DNA of 33,082 nt. Origin: Peptococcaceae bacterium (GTDB lineage Bacteria > Bacillota > Desulfitobacteriia > Desulfitobacteriales > Syntrophobotulaceae). The stretch covers positions 1 through 33,082 of the forward strand of contig JAAYMU010000141.1 in the NCBI GenBank assembly GCA_012521215.1, in the 5' to 3' direction. Below are positions 26,429 to 32,987 of the stretch, one piece after another. Numbering within the stretch: the first letter of the stretch is position 1; the number at the start of each line of letters is the position of its first letter. The position numbers and the translations under genes were made by a program. The notes under the pieces are model-generated. The model did not search any database, was not told where the DNA came from, and worked only from the letters and a program-made list of their open reading frames with translations.

Positions 26429-28228
26429 ATGAAAGAAGTATACGGTAACACTAAAGGTTTGAAAAAAAATATTCTGCTGGAGCTGGCCAACCTCTATACC
26501 CTGACCGTCCCTCAAGAACACCTCTGGTCCCTTGAACTGATAGAAAGGATTTCCTACCTTTCGTCGCTGATAAACCGGGAGATAGCTCTTTATTTGGATC
26601 GCCGGGGACATGTCCTGGAGGTAAGCGTTGGGGATCATCAGAAGGTAACTCTGGGCGAGGTAGAAGGTAAGCGAAACATTCACCGGCTTTCCGGGATTCG
26701 CTGCCTGCATACTCATCCTAACGGGAGCGGCCGCTTGTCTGCTGTAGATATCAACGCCTTAAAAAAACTGCGCCTTGACGCCATGACAGCCGTAGGAATT
26801 GTAAATGGGCGGGCTCAAGAGTTATACACCGGCCTTATTTGGCCTGACGACCAGGAAGAAGTGAAAATTTTTGGCCCTTATAAGCCTAGTAAGGCGGATT
26901 TCAGTAGCTTGAACCGTTTAATCAGGAAAGCCGATCGTCGGCTGCGCCTGACCCCGGTGAGTAATGAAGTTTCTAAAGAAAGAGCCATCGTAGTAGGAAT
27001 TCAAACCCCCGATTCCTACTTGGACAGCTTAACCGAAGCTGAAATTTCTCTGGCTGAACTGAAAGAACTGGCAAAAACCGCGGGAGCTCAGGTCGTAGGA
27101 GAAGTAAAGCAAAAACGAAACAGTCCTAATTCTTCGACAATTATTGGTCAAGGCAAACTGGAAGAACTTCGGCTTATGGTCCAAGCCTTAAGCGCCGATT
27201 TAGTGATAATCGACACCGAATTATCGGGAACCCAGCAACGTAACATAGAAAAGTCCATTGGCTGCAAAGTAATAAGCCGTACAGCTCTCATTCTGGATAT
27301 TTTTGCCCAGCGAGCTCGTTCCAAGGAAGGTAAACTGCAAGTAGAACTGGCCCAACTAGAATACAGACTACCGCGACTCATGGGAACGGGACTGGTACTC
27401 TCTCGCTTGGGAGGTGGAATCGGTACCCGCGGCCCCGGTGAAACCAAGCTGGAAACGGACCGCCGTCATATCAGGGCTCGCATTGCCCATTTAAAAAATG
27501 AACTGGATGCTATCAGTAAGCAGAGAAATGTTTTACGCCGCAACCGCCAAAAAAACAAAATTCCACTTGTTTCTTTGGTGGGCTATACCAATGCCGGCAA
27601 ATCAACCTTACTCAATACTTTATGCTCAACGCAAGTACTGGCGGAAGATAAACTGTTTGCCACCCTTGATACCACGGTCCGTAAACTACCTCTGTCTAAC
27701 GACCGGACCGTCCTAATGGCAGATACAGTCGGCTTTATTCGCAAACTGCCGCCCGGCTTACTCGACGCCTTTAAATCCACCTTGGAAGAGGTTGTTCTGG
27801 CAGATTTAATCTTAATTGTGGCCGATGCCTCTGATCCTCAGGTTGAAGTTCAAATAAGAATTGTGGATGAGATCCTGGCCGAACTTAAAGCCGAAACCAA
27901 GCCCACTCTCATCGTTCTAAACAAGATTGATCTTCTAACAACAAAAAATCCGCTCTCCCTTCCTTTGGGAAACCGGACGATTATCGAAGTATCGGCTAAA
28001 ACGGGACAAGGTTTGGAATTGTTAAAAGCAACCATAGAAAACACTCTTTTTGGCCGGCGGATCCAGCTAAGTTTAATGATTCCTTATAGCGAAGGAGGAA
28101 TGTTAGCCTTTCTTTATGATCAAACTAAAGTGTTGGAAGAAACATTTAAGGAACAGGGGACTTTACTGAAAGTAGAGCTGGAAAAATCCCTGCTGGAAAA
28201 AGTAGCTAAATATAGAGTATACAATTAG
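26429..28228 (+). CDS. hflX: GTPase HflX with N-terminal JAMM-like domain
   Basis: The C-terminal 420 residues are HflX: the HflX N-domain (QVVGEVKQKRNSPNSSTIIG, then GTQQRNIEKSIGCKVISRTA), a Gly-rich GGGIGTRGPGETKLETDRR segment, and a G domain with GYTNAGKS (385-392), DTVGFIRKLP (432-441) and NKID (498-501). HflX binds the 50S subunit and splits stalled ribosomes. The first 180 residues are an extra domain beyond the usual 420-430. They contain HTHPNGSGRLSAVD, with H94-x-H96-x7-S104-x2-D107 and an upstream E51, matching the spacing of JAMM/RadC metalloprotease-fold sites. ATG 26429 has AAGG 4 nt upstream. It is divergent from pgi and converges on the hydrogenase cluster. Confidence 0.93.
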   Translation: MKEVYGNTKGLKKNILLELANLYTLTVPQEHLWSLELIERISYLSSLINREIALYLDRRGHVLEVSVGDHQKVTLGEVEGKRNIHRLSGIRCLHTHPNGSGRLSAVDINALKKLRLDAMTAVGIVNGRAQELYTGLIWPDDQEEVKIFGPYKPSKADFSSLNRLIRKADRRLRLTPVSNEVSKERAIVVGIQTPDSYLDSLTEAEISLAELKELAKTAGAQVVGEVKQKRNSPNSSTIIGQGKLEELRLMVQALSADLVIIDTELSGTQQRNIEKSIGCKVISRTALILDIFAQRARSKEGKLQVELAQLEYRLPRLMGTGLVLSRLGGGIGTRGPGETKLETDRRHIRARIAHLKNELDAISKQRNVLRRNRQKNKIPLVSLVGYTNAGKSTLLNTLCSTQVLAEDKLFATLDTTVRKLPLSNDRTVLMADTVGFIRKLPPGLLDAFKSTLEEVVLADLILIVADASDPQVEVQIRIVDEILAELKAETKPTLIVLNKIDLLTTKNPLSLPLGNRTIIEVSAKTGQGLELLKATIENTLFGRRIQLSLMIPYSEGGMLAFLYDQTKVLEETFKEQGTLLKVELEKSLLEKVAKYRVYN

Positions 28229-28240
28229 ATTTATCAATAT

Positions 28241-29398
28241 TTATCTCCGATGCAGGAGGATAATTTTTCCCATATCCTTTAATTTCTGCATTAGTAAATT
28301 AACAATAGTCTGCCGGGGCAAAACTCCCAATTGTTTAAAGGAAATATTATCATGCCCCGGGTTGCTGGCACCGCCTACAAAAAAATTTATGAAATCAGCT
28401 TCTAACATCATATTGCTCAGATCACTGACGCAAGTCCCACTCTCATAATTTTTCGGATCCTCATCCAAAATATTATAGACCTGATTTAGGGTAACCGCGC
28501 CTTCGGTGACCAGGTCGATTCCTTTAATGCTATATCTTGGAGGCTGAGCAAAGGAAGAGGATAAGGAAAGAATCTCAACCGGTTCTCCCACAACTCTGGC
28601 TACTATTTCGGAGGTAGTCGAACCGCAAACAACTCTATAGCCTTCCCGGCTAAGAAAATCGTGTACAAAACTCTCGTCTTCGCTCGGGTAAACAGCCGGT
28701 CCGGTCATCAAGTTTAAAACCTTGGCCTGTCGGCAGTTCAATACCGCAAGGGAAGCATCGTCTGCAAAAACTCCTCCGGAAAGCCGGCATGCTTTGTCCA
28801 TTATATCCTGAGCCGCTTCCATCAGAGATTTACCTCTATAAAGGGCAGTATTAAGAAAGGAATTAACACCCTCCACGCCCCAGCCTAAGCCCGGATTTTC
28901 TCCCAAGCCGGCCTGAGTTATACCGTCAGTCATGAGTAGCAGGGCTTCCCCATCACGAAGCATGCCGGTCGATTCTTTGACCGGTTCCTCGGCCAGGGTA
29001 ATATCCCTGGAAGCCATTATCTCCGCTCCGTTCCTATTAATCATCAAAGGTTCAGGGCTATCATAAGACAATACGGTATACTGGCCGTTATTTAGGATCC
29101 AGGCTACTGTAAAAGCGGCATAAGGAATATCCTTCTGCGTTCTGGCCTTATGCATCATAGACAAGACCGTTTCACAGGACTTAAATAAAGAGATTCCCGA
29201 CTCCAGAAGCCATAAAAGACGGTGGGCGCACATAGTAGCAGCAATGTTGGCTTTAATGCCTGAACCTAAGCCATCGCAAAGTATAAAAATGGTATGTTCA
29301 AAGGTCCTCTTACAGAGATAATAATCTCCACAGGTCCGATTACCCATCTTACTCGCTTGCTTAACCGCATCCTCAACATAAAGCCATTTAGCTTTCAT
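28241..29398 (-). CDS. SpoIIE/PP2C-type serine/threonine phosphatase linked to HydS
   Basis: This protein of 385 residues has PP2C/SpoIIE metal-binding motifs in order: GDYYLCK (D25), LCDGLGSGIKAN (D42), LLMTDGITQAG (D158) and FADDASLAVL (D213-D214). About 160 further residues (from about 225) have no motif I recognise. The family dephosphorylates serine or threonine in partner proteins. ATG 29398 lies inside the hydS 3' end, an 11-bp overlap suggesting translational coupling. The pairing with a PAS-containing hydrogenase-like protein fits the known sensory-hydrogenase arrangement, so an output role is likely, but the target protein is not in view. Confidence 0.85.
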   Translation of the reverse strand: MKAKWLYVEDAVKQASKMGNRTCGDYYLCKRTFEHTIFILCDGLGSGIKANIAATMCAHRLLWLLESGISLFKSCETVLSMMHKARTQKDIPYAAFTVAWILNNGQYTVLSYDSPEPLMINRNGAEIMASRDITLAEEPVKESTGMLRDGEALLLMTDGITQAGLGENPGLGWGVEGVNSFLNTALYRGKSLMEAAQDIMDKACRLSGGVFADDASLAVLNCRQAKVLNLMTGPAVYPSEDESFVHDFLSREGYRVVCGSTTSEIVARVVGEPVEILSLSSSFAQPPRYSIKGIDLVTEGAVTLNQVYNILDEDPKNYESGTCVSDLSNMMLEADFINFFVGGASNPGHDNISFKQLGVLPRQTIVNLLMQKLKDMGKIILLHRR

Positions 29399-31163
29399 AA
29401 GTGCCCATCAGCCTTTCTACTAATTCCTCACTGCGGGCGGTGCTTTCCCCTAAAAATTTAGCCATGGTTTGAGCTACCTTGATCTGGTGCTCCAAGAGTT
29501 CTTGGGCTTTCTTAATAGTTTGTGTTTTTAATTCTTCCATCTTGGCCTCGGTCACCAGCATTCCCGTAACATCGGTATAAATACCAACATACTGGTTTTC
29601 TTCATACAAGCGGTAGACCAACTGGTGAAACTCCCGGCCATAACAGGATACGATCGCTGAGGTATATTCCTTAACCCCGGTTGCTACTTTTTCAAAATTT
29701 TGGGCATCAAGCAAATAGGAAATATTCCTGCCGATCAAATGTTTCCCACATATAAAATAATCACAAAAAGAAGCATTCATAGCAAGAATATTCAAAGCTT
29801 TATCAAGGATGACTATTCCACTGGGACTGCTGTCCATAATTTTATCTGCTCTCTGCTCAGCCAGCTTGCGCATATAGGGGATGCACATTTCAATTCCCGC
29901 CATGCCCCTTAACACAGCCTTGGCTTTTTCCCGACAACTGGAATACCCACAGGCACCACAGTTCAATCTGCTTTCGGGATCAGCCTTATCCATCTTGGCA
30001 AATACCTGATTTATTTGCTCCTCGCGGAAATCCTCCCCAATATTTTCTTTAGGAGTAAAGACCGCGGTCAAACCAAGATCCAAATCATTAAAGTCCTTTA
30101 ACTCATCAAACTCATGTTCTTCCTCAGACCGGTCAACCGGAGGCTTGGACTCGCTTTCTGAATCTATACCTGCAGCCGGTAAATCGAATTTACCGGCTGC
30201 AGAATTTATGAGATTGGCTCGCCGCTCAAAAAGGTTAATCTCAAGGTTAATACCTAAACCATTGATACAACCTTCACTGCACATCAAAGGCTCTACAATC
30301 TCTAAATCGTTGAGGGTATTACCTAGCTCAAACAACAGTTTAACATTATCCATGCCACTGAGATGCATTATTTCTCTTTGGGTCCCGTCCTGCGCTATAC
30401 CCATAGTTTTCAGCATTCCCCCGGGCAAGGGAAACAGTCTGGCATGACCAGGCTTAAGGCAATTGTCAAAGTTATCCGGAGGACAATCCTCCAGCAGGAT
30501 ATTTTCTCTGGCCAGCCACTGGTTAAGTTCGCTGAAAGTTAAGACCACGTCTACATCCCCATAATAGGCGGGGCGTTCGGCTTCTTGTTTTTTGGCTAGA
30601 CAAGGACCGATAAAAACCACTTTAATGTCCGGCCCATAGTATTTTTTAAGGAATCTGGCATGGGCAATCATCGGGGAAACAACAGGGAAAAGTTTATTAA
30701 GGTGCTCCGGACAATACTTCTCTACATAATTAACTACTGCCGGACAAGCGGTACAAACAGACATCTCCGAAGAGGAAGAACTCATAATTTTTGTCGTTTG
30801 TTGGGCTACAATCCTGGCCCCTTCTGCCGTTTCCGCAACTTTGAAAAAGCCCAAACGGCGCAAGGCAGAAGGCAGTCTTTGCCCTTTCCGACTACCATAA
30901 ACGGCGCTGAAGGATGGTGCCACACTGGCTATAACTTTTCTCGCTAGCACAAGTTCCGCTGCGGACTCGATATCATTGCGGTAAATTTTGGCATGCTGGG
31001 GACATTCCCGCACACAGGTACCGCATAATATGCAGCGCTTGGCATCAACATATGCCTGATTATCCTTAATGCCAATAGCTTTGACCGGGCATATCCTCAC
31101 ACAGCGATAACAATCCCTGCATTTGGCTGATAAGGTTCTCAGAATCGCTTTAGCCCCGTCCAT
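29388..31163 (-). CDS. hydS: HydS-like sensory [FeFe] hydrogenase with PAS domain
   Basis: The 591 residues carry two N-terminal [4Fe-4S] motifs (C15,C18,C21,C25 and C44,C47,C50,C54). The H-cluster domain has L1 CTACPA (C140), L2 IGPCLAKKQEA (C188) and L3 EPLMCSEGCINGLG (C295,C299). A NCGACGYSSC Fe-S motif (C402,C405,C410,C427), a PAS domain (about 440-535) and a C-terminal coiled region follow. In catalytic enzymes L1 is TSCCP; here alanine (A139) replaces the proton-relay cysteine and L2 has Gly instead of Met before Pro-Cys. This is the pattern described for sensory group C HydS proteins, so slow catalysis and signalling are inferred. ATG 31163 has AGGAG with a 7-nt spacer, while the ATG at 31187 has none. 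It follows hydA by 52 bp. Confidence 0.9.
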   Translation of the reverse strand: MDGAKAILRTLSAKCRDCYRCVRICPVKAIGIKDNQAYVDAKRCILCGTCVRECPQHAKIYRNDIESAAELVLARKVIASVAPSFSAVYGSRKGQRLPSALRRLGFFKVAETAEGARIVAQQTTKIMSSSSSEMSVCTACPAVVNYVEKYCPEHLNKLFPVVSPMIAHARFLKKYYGPDIKVVFIGPCLAKKQEAERPAYYGDVDVVLTFSELNQWLARENILLEDCPPDNFDNCLKPGHARLFPLPGGMLKTMGIAQDGTQREIMHLSGMDNVKLLFELGNTLNDLEIVEPLMCSEGCINGLGINLEINLFERRANLINSAAGKFDLPAAGIDSESESKPPVDRSEEEHEFDELKDFNDLDLGLTAVFTPKENIGEDFREEQINQVFAKMDKADPESRLNCGACGYSSCREKAKAVLRGMAGIEMCIPYMRKLAEQRADKIMDSSPSGIVILDKALNILAMNASFCDYFICGKHLIGRNISYLLDAQNFEKVATGVKEYTSAIVSCYGREFHQLVYRLYEENQYVGIYTDVTGMLVTEAKMEELKTQTIKKAQELLEHQIKVAQTMAKFLGESTARSEELVERLMGTYES

Positions 31164-31215
31164 GAAACCACTCCTTTGGCCGGACATTTTTGGCTAGTAA
31201 CAGCTTGGGATTATA

Positions 31216-32949
31216 CTACCCGTTCTTTCTAGCCTGGTAAGAGGTGTGCAATAGTTCATGGGCAATCTCACTGCCCGGATGCTTAAACAAGGTATTGTAA
31301 AGGTCAGTCACATAAGGATTGTCCTGGGGTTTGTGCAATTGCAACGTTTTTTCACTGTCATAAAGACTGGCAGTTCTTTTGGCTTTAACACATAGATCCT
31401 TGGTAACCGGCTGTCCTCCACCATTTATGCATCCACCCGGACAAGCCATGACTTCGATTAAATCATAATGAACCTCTCCGCTTTTGATTTTTTCAATCAG
31501 CTTTTTAGCATTACCCAAACCGCTGACTACAGCCAGGGTTAATGTTTTTTCTCCCAGCTCAACCCTAACTTCCCGTACTTCATCCTTTCCACGGACGCAT
31601 TCAAATACATAGTTGTGGTTGCCGTTGTTCTTTTGGCCTTGAATTTTTTCGCTAACATATCTTAAAACGGCCTCCGAAACTCCACCTGAATTGCCAAAGA
31701 TCACACCGCCACCTGTTTTAAAACCAAAGGGCAGATCAAAGGAATCCTTAGGCAACTGGCTGAAATTCAGGCCCATTTCTTTAATCATTAACGCTAATTC
31801 CTGGGTAGTCAACACATAATCGACATCCCTAACAGAATCTTGGCTAAATTCAGGCCTTAAAGCTTCGCTCTTCTTAGCGGTGCACGGCATAATGGACACC
31901 ACTACAATATCTTCTTTTTTAAGATTTTTGCTGGCCGCCAGGCGGTTTTTAACAACAGAACCCATCATTTGCTGCGGGGATCTACAGGTAGACAGATGGG
32001 GTAAAAACTCTGGGTAATACTGTTCGGCAAAACTAACCCATGCCGGACAGCAGGAAGTAAACTGCGGAATATTTTCTCCTTTTTCTATGCGCCCTAAAAA
32101 TTCCTCCGCTTCCTCGACAACTGTTAAGTCCGCAGCGAAAGAAGTATCATACACAGCATCAAAGCCCATGGTTCTTAGAGCGGACACAATCTGGGGCGTG
32201 GTCAAGGTTCCGGCTTCCATATGGAAACTTTCTCCTAAGGATACCCTGACAGCCGGAGCTAGTTGAGCCACAACCATTTTCCCCGGGTCATGAATTGCAT
32301 CCCAAACCTCATCAATATTAGGTTTGGGGTGCAAGGCTCCGGTAGGACATACCCTGGCACATTGCCCGCAATTAACACACTCCACTTCTGCCAAATCTTT
32401 GCCAAAGTAAGGAGTTACCTTGGCGTGAGAACCGCGAAAAGCAAAATCAATGGCCCCTACTCCCTGGATCTCGTTGCACATCCGGACACAGTCCCCACAA
32501 AGAATACATTTGTTGGGTTCACGCACCAAAGAGGGGGATGATTCATCTATCTTAACCCTTTCAAATCCTTGGGAAAAGCGAATATGAGTTACTCCCATTC
32601 TACGGGCCAATGTTTGCAGCTGACAGTCTCCTCCCTTAACGCAGGTTGGGCAAGCGCTTTCATGACTGGCCAGGATGAGTTCCAGGATCATTTTACGAAT
32701 CTTACGCAATTCTTTGGTATTAGTATTAACAACCATTCCTTCTTCGGGCTTAATGGAACAAGCCGGCTGCAGACCCCTACCCTCTATTTCAACTAAACAT
32801 AGTCGACAGGCGCCGTAGATGCTCATCTCCGAGTGATAGCAAAAAGTGGGTAACTCAATATTAGCCTTGCGTATTACTTCCAGGAGGTTTCTCTCATCTT
32901 CGATCAACACCTTAATATTGTCTACAGTTAATAATCTATCTTTACTCAT
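31216..32949 (-). CDS. hydA: [FeFe] hydrogenase catalytic subunit (CpI/HydA-like)
   Basis: The 577 residues follow the CpI layout: [2Fe-2S] ligands C37, C48, C51, C64; a His-ligated cluster H96, C100, C103, C109; and two [4Fe-4S] motifs C148-C158 and C191-C201. The H-cluster domain has L1 TSCCPAW (C300 proton relay, C301 ligand), L2 MPCTAKKSEA (C356) and L3 VMACPGGCINGGGQ (C503, C507). It should catalyse reversible proton reduction. The form is typical of NADH-dependent or bifurcating subunits, whose partners would lie beyond the window end. ATG 32949 has AGGAG with an 8-nt spacer; the frame to 32985 has none. Confidence 0.96.
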   Translation of the reverse strand: MSKDRLLTVDNIKVLIEDERNLLEVIRKANIELPTFCYHSEMSIYGACRLCLVEIEGRGLQPACSIKPEEGMVVNTNTKELRKIRKMILELILASHESACPTCVKGGDCQLQTLARRMGVTHIRFSQGFERVKIDESSPSLVREPNKCILCGDCVRMCNEIQGVGAIDFAFRGSHAKVTPYFGKDLAEVECVNCGQCARVCPTGALHPKPNIDEVWDAIHDPGKMVVAQLAPAVRVSLGESFHMEAGTLTTPQIVSALRTMGFDAVYDTSFAADLTVVEEAEEFLGRIEKGENIPQFTSCCPAWVSFAEQYYPEFLPHLSTCRSPQQMMGSVVKNRLAASKNLKKEDIVVVSIMPCTAKKSEALRPEFSQDSVRDVDYVLTTQELALMIKEMGLNFSQLPKDSFDLPFGFKTGGGVIFGNSGGVSEAVLRYVSEKIQGQKNNGNHNYVFECVRGKDEVREVRVELGEKTLTLAVVSGLGNAKKLIEKIKSGEVHYDLIEVMACPGGCINGGGQPVTKDLCVKAKRTASLYDSEKTLQLHKPQDNPYVTDLYNTLFKHPGSEIAHELLHTSYQARKNG

Positions 32950-32987
32950 GCTCAACACTCCTCGTATAATATGTTTTGAAATCAAAA

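Follow-up and report, generated by a model that had tools for sequence, protein, structure and literature searches.

HflX, a conserved factor in ribosome rescue, has been studied mainly in species where it carries no JAMM domain. In its GTP-bound state HflX moves into 70S ribosomes that are stalled or vacant, the helical domain extends as far as the peptidyl transferase centre, H69 is displaced by ND1, and the two subunits come apart (PMC12493154). In mycobacterial HflX additional sequence preceding ND1 passes uL16 and H38 to reach H69-H71 (PMC12493154). N-terminally extended HflX proteins were also noted in several Clostridium species by a 2025 review, with no domain described (PMC12493154). 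The strict signature of the JAMM proteases is ExnHS/THX7SXXD (PMC300881), and in the archaeal AfJAMM the glutamate and the first histidine (E22 and H67) are 45 residues apart (PMC300881).

Here we describe a gene of a Peptococcaceae bacterium (contig JAAYMU010000141.1, assembly GCA_012521215.1), in which these two kinds of sequence are joined. The stretch of DNA analysed, called the window in the following, is 33,082 nucleotides long. HflX and HflXr of E. coli and Listeria, as well as GTPBP6, are similar to residues 185-599 of the encoded protein and are without the JAMM domain. Mycobacterial HflX shares with it the presence of extra sequence before ND1, but the extension is 39-58 amino acids there (PMC12493154), compared with a folded JAMM domain of approximately 155 amino acids here. 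AfJAMM, PfJAMM1, AMSH, Rpn11, CSN5 and Cap3 have the same ExnH(S/T)Hx7SxxD site and the same predicted fold. These JAMM/MPN+ proteases are remote in sequence from the window domain, which, in contrast to them, is fused to a ribosome-splitting GTPase and has no recognised Ubl or E1 partner nearby. The arrangement is reminiscent of RadC-like DinG, where a JAB domain likewise lies N-terminal to a nucleotide-driven enzyme (PMC11981726), a helicase in that case and a ribosome GTPase in ours. We found no description of a JAB, JAMM, MPN or RadC fusion to HflX in the open-licence literature. HflX and JAMM are each known; their intact combination and its distribution appear to be undescribed.

Domain layout and predicted metal site

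The features of the gene are as follows.

26429..28228, + strand: JAMM-HflX fusion gene, 599 amino acids, ATG start (open reading frame; TIGR03156 match of 465 bits)
26429..26893, + strand: predicted JAMM/MPN+ domain, residues 1-155 (AF2 pLDDT mostly >90, AMSH profile match, Foldseek, hhalign)
26579..26581, + strand: E51, the predicted catalytic glutamate, where a beta strand starts (invariant in 36 long HflX proteins; E/H/H/S/D set in 66 of 79 sequences)
26708..26716, + strand: H94-T-H96, predicted zinc ligands (from sequence; invariant in 36)
26738..26749, + strand: S104-x2-D107, predicted oxyanion serine and third zinc ligand (from sequence; invariant in 36)
26894..26980, + strand: variable helix/linker of ~25 amino acids, residues 156-184 (low pairwise identity)
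26981..28225, + strand: complete HflX core, residues 185-599 (Pfam domains, Foldseek)
27581..27604, + strand: G1/P-loop GYTNAGKS of the GTPase, residues 385-392 (columns mostly invariant in 33 long HflX proteins)

The C-terminal part is HflX. Residues 185-540 match TIGR03156 with 465 bits, well above the cut-off of 217, thus residues 1-184 are extra sequence preceding the normal HflX; the preliminary description had given residues 1-180. Pfam finds GTP-bdg_N, GTP-bdg_M, MMR_HSR1 and HflX_C in the 599-residue protein, the GTPase motif columns of long HflX proteins are invariant or nearly so, and the top Foldseek matches of the core are ribosome-bound HflX and HflXr structures (E down to 7e-41). 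Residues 185-599 are, by these models and profiles, a complete HflX GTPase, for which ribosome binding and splitting are predicted from structural similarity. Mean pairwise identity is 19% in the linker, 38% in the JAMM domain and 49-67% in the HflX ND/HD.

The preliminary description had pointed out an HxHx7SxxD motif with E51 located 43 residues ahead of H94, a spacing close to that of archaeal JAMM. Both the motif and the spacing are exact in the reading frame at 26429-28228, and 43 residues, which is also the distance in most of the relatives found, compares well with the 45 of AfJAMM. The stretch containing H94, H96, S104 and D107 reads HTHPNGSGRLSAVD (codons at 26708-26749), and together with E51 these residues fit the strict JAMM signature. 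In 184 amino acids of the same composition HxHx7SxxD would be expected by chance 8e-5 times. An alignment of 36 long HflX proteins has 12 invariant columns in the domain (E51, R58, G60, G68, R91, H94, T95, H96, P97, S104, D107 and D117), and all five named residues are among these 12 of 175 columns, for which the chance probability is 6e-7. Column invariance and the low expectation rule out a chance occurrence of the motif. A further nearly invariant position of the domain is the cysteine C92 (26702-26704), which lies two residues ahead of H94, the first histidine of the putative zinc site.

Fold and family of the N-terminal domain

The AF2 model of residues 1-203 has a mean pLDDT of 88.5. Its elements follow in the order helix-helix-beta(E51)-beta-beta(HTH)-helix(D107)-beta-beta-beta-helix. 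The top-ranked Foldseek matches in the PDB are mostly JAB/MPN proteins (RadC, Cap3, Prp8-Jab1, CSN5, Rpn11 and PfJAMM1), with modest TM-scores and none at E<0.001. A profile of the domain (A1) searched against the PDB finds AMSH-type JAMM proteases with E=0.003, in an alignment that spans the motif, and PADLOC JAB models match the domain as well. Single-sequence Pfam matches of the window protein are weak (RadC E=0.027, Prok-JAB E=0.22, both below the curated cut-offs); among 36 relatives Prok-JAB matches 23 (best 5.6e-5) and RadC 14 (best 6e-4). Because the individual E-values are weak, the JAMM assignment rests on the concordance of the methods, which supports a predicted JAB/MPN fold. Taking the models and the conserved sequence pattern together, we are highly confident that the domain is of the JAMM type and that its metal site is real.

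Its place within the JAB proteins is less simple. In hhalign comparisons the domain profile was nearest to RadC of related genomes (E=9.5e-5), followed by their Prok-JAB proteins (0.0055), with a negative control at 0.24. RadC (PF04002) and the window domain share the JAB core, but membership in the Pfam family was rejected at 14.8 bits against a cut-off of 22.1, and the RadC signature HNHP...PS..D is absent: the window protein has HTHP...LS..D, whereas RadC of the relatives reads HNHPSGDPTPSRED. The label RadC-type used in the preliminary description thus holds for profile proximity and fails for the family cut-off and the motif. The same text considered a degenerate JAB fold, which does not apply to the window protein with its complete site and does describe two side branches of the family (see below).

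Conservation and losses

The domain profile was run against 398 genomes drawn evenly from the phylum (Bacillota). Matches were found in 84 genomes, and in 73 of these, belonging to 28 families, the domain is on HflX. The other 11 were left out: they are 221-297 amino acids long, in the size range of RadC, and have weak E-values, and one of them (L111) reads HNHPSG. In the class of the window organism the domain is present in 15 of 16 genomes. The full site occurs in 60 of the 73 genomes with the domain on HflX. The preliminary description had also asked about a known long form of HflX; long HflX is indeed widespread, while for the domain itself we found no description.

Among 79 distinct sequences, 66 keep E/H/H/S/D. 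The 13 others, which lack the H-x-H site, all come from three families (f42, f86 and f94), and some of them retain E51 and S104/D107; one further degenerate copy belongs to f85. Of the two outcomes that the preliminary description had named as contradicting its reading, a predicted fold other than JAB/MPN and absence of the motif residues from close relatives, neither was observed. The fold region is kept in the degenerate proteins (L096-L099 and L102 in f42; L103-L107, L109 and L110 in f86; L108 in f94; L127 in f85). On a tree of the HflX core two losses of the site suffice, the f85 copy included. On this poorly resolved tree the domain switches between present and absent 13 times. Short HflX proteins nested inside the long forms (L124 in family f45, L145 within the degenerate group) point to losses of the domain. 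Divergence of the domain parallels that of the HflX core (Mantel, 0 of 999), and as far as their sequences tell, the domain is co-inherited with the core. MPN domains with and without the metal site (MPN+ and MPN-) are a familiar pattern in eukaryotes, and the site-kept and site-lost HflX domains match it.

Outside the phylum, HflX of Fusobacterium animalis and F. vincentii (600 amino acids) has an intact site; these proteins were found through two plasmid records, one of them 2.1 Mb long. The F. animalis gene (L155:5998-7800) lies on a record labelled as a 219-kb plasmid, beside shikimate kinase and WYL genes. A mobile or phage origin was considered and rejected, as no phage record matched the domain; the single viral-contig match (L153) may be a bacterial fragment.

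A C-terminal extension of HflX was seen in family f52. One protein (L125, genome G088) is a 739-residue open frame, in which HflX is followed by a tRNA-dihydrouridine synthase (Dus domain E=8e-95). In two others (L126 of G123 and L152 of G205) Dus-like sequence follows HflX and the open frame stops within it.

Possible function

That the site is kept in most domain-bearing relatives and, in just two branches, lost as a unit suggests that HflX brings an undescribed enzyme to the ribosome. Judged from motif, models and conservation, a zinc hydrolase is the likeliest identity of the domain, with a peptidase as the probable kind, and HflX would carry it to 50S subunits, stalled or split. HflX-GTP would dock on stalled or vacant ribosomes and split them. 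Because the N-terminus of HflX is expected, by analogy with mycobacterial HflX, to lie at the intersubunit face, the flexible and variable linker of ~25 residues would place the JAMM domain there, and the likeliest target for hydrolysis by the zinc enzyme would be a peptide or isopeptide bond, either in a nascent chain or in a protein bound to the ribosome. We think it rather likely that the domain is a hydrolase acting at the ribosome, and we lean, a little less firmly, towards a two-enzyme protein consisting of a normal HflX and an N-terminally tethered JAMM/MPN+ zinc hydrolase acting there. That a peptide bond is cut is a tentative proposal. To our knowledge, all JAMM domains with demonstrated activity cut peptide or isopeptide bonds; for this reason, and because the nuclease idea for RadC-like domains is contextual, we favour a peptidase. 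It is speculative, and on balance doubtful, that a ribosome-targeted JAMM protease exists in a large share of Clostridia-type Firmicutes and, at the least, in Fusobacterium. Such an enzyme would free stalled or split ribosomes of a tag or a protein modification, a step of bacterial quality control comparable to ribosome-associated deubiquitination.

The domain could instead be a RadC-like nuclease cutting rRNA, tRNA or mRNA on the ribosome that HflX is splitting. The proximity to the RadC profile and the position of HflX on rRNA are in line with this, and RadC-clade and toxin JAB domains have been proposed from context to be nucleases (PMC3482391). The role of RadC as a nuclease is, however, itself a proposal, a DALI search with a RadC-like domain found metalloproteases rather than nucleases (PMC11981726), and the HTH of the motif is that of proven JAMM proteases, not the HNH of the RadCs examined. 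We consider such a nuclease unlikely.

The losses of the site bear on a mechanical role, in which the domain would serve as a wedge, or for docking, at the intersubunit face, aiding splitting or keeping the subunits apart, with catalysis secondary. The fold region does persist in two lineages that lost the site, and the unrelated mycobacterial extension acts mechanically on H68-H71 (PMC12493154), but 66 of the 79 distinct sequences have kept all five catalytic residues, which makes this quite improbable as the main function. We give the lowest probability to a regulatory metal site, whose zinc occupancy would sense the zinc supply and gate docking or splitting by HflX. The ligand set is complete, and in some bacteria ribosome composition is tied to zinc through zinc-free ribosomal protein paralogues (PMC12493154); E51 and S104 are, however, as invariant as the ligands, and a pure zinc sensor needs neither.

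Returning to the putative hydrolase, activity of the site is dispensable for HflX function in general, since two lineages are without the site and many genomes without the domain. An intact JAMM domain is present on HflX in about 15% of the sampled Bacillota genomes and in Fusobacterium, and if it is an enzyme, ribosome splitting would be coupled there to a hydrolysis step for which no one has searched. Nature provides ready-made controls: the active site was lost twice, and there are close relatives without the domain.

Genomic setting

The organism has one HflX, encoded by the fusion gene, and a separate RadC. Recurrent neighbours of hflX in the relatives, assigned by eye and not by profile search, are MiaA, a SpoVK-like AAA protein, a methionine gamma-lyase-like protein and LexA. 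As these are the usual neighbours of hflX in Firmicutes, the domain sits at an ordinary hflX locus; none of these neighbours was recognised as a Ubl or E1 partner. In the window the neighbours are all on the opposite strand, glucose-6-phosphate isomerase upstream, and genes for a SpoIIE-like phosphatase and [FeFe]-hydrogenase downstream. In this downstream part (28241-32985, minus strand) the SpoIIE-like phosphatase adjoins two [FeFe]-hydrogenase-type proteins, one of which has a shortened hydrogenase region (29388-31187).
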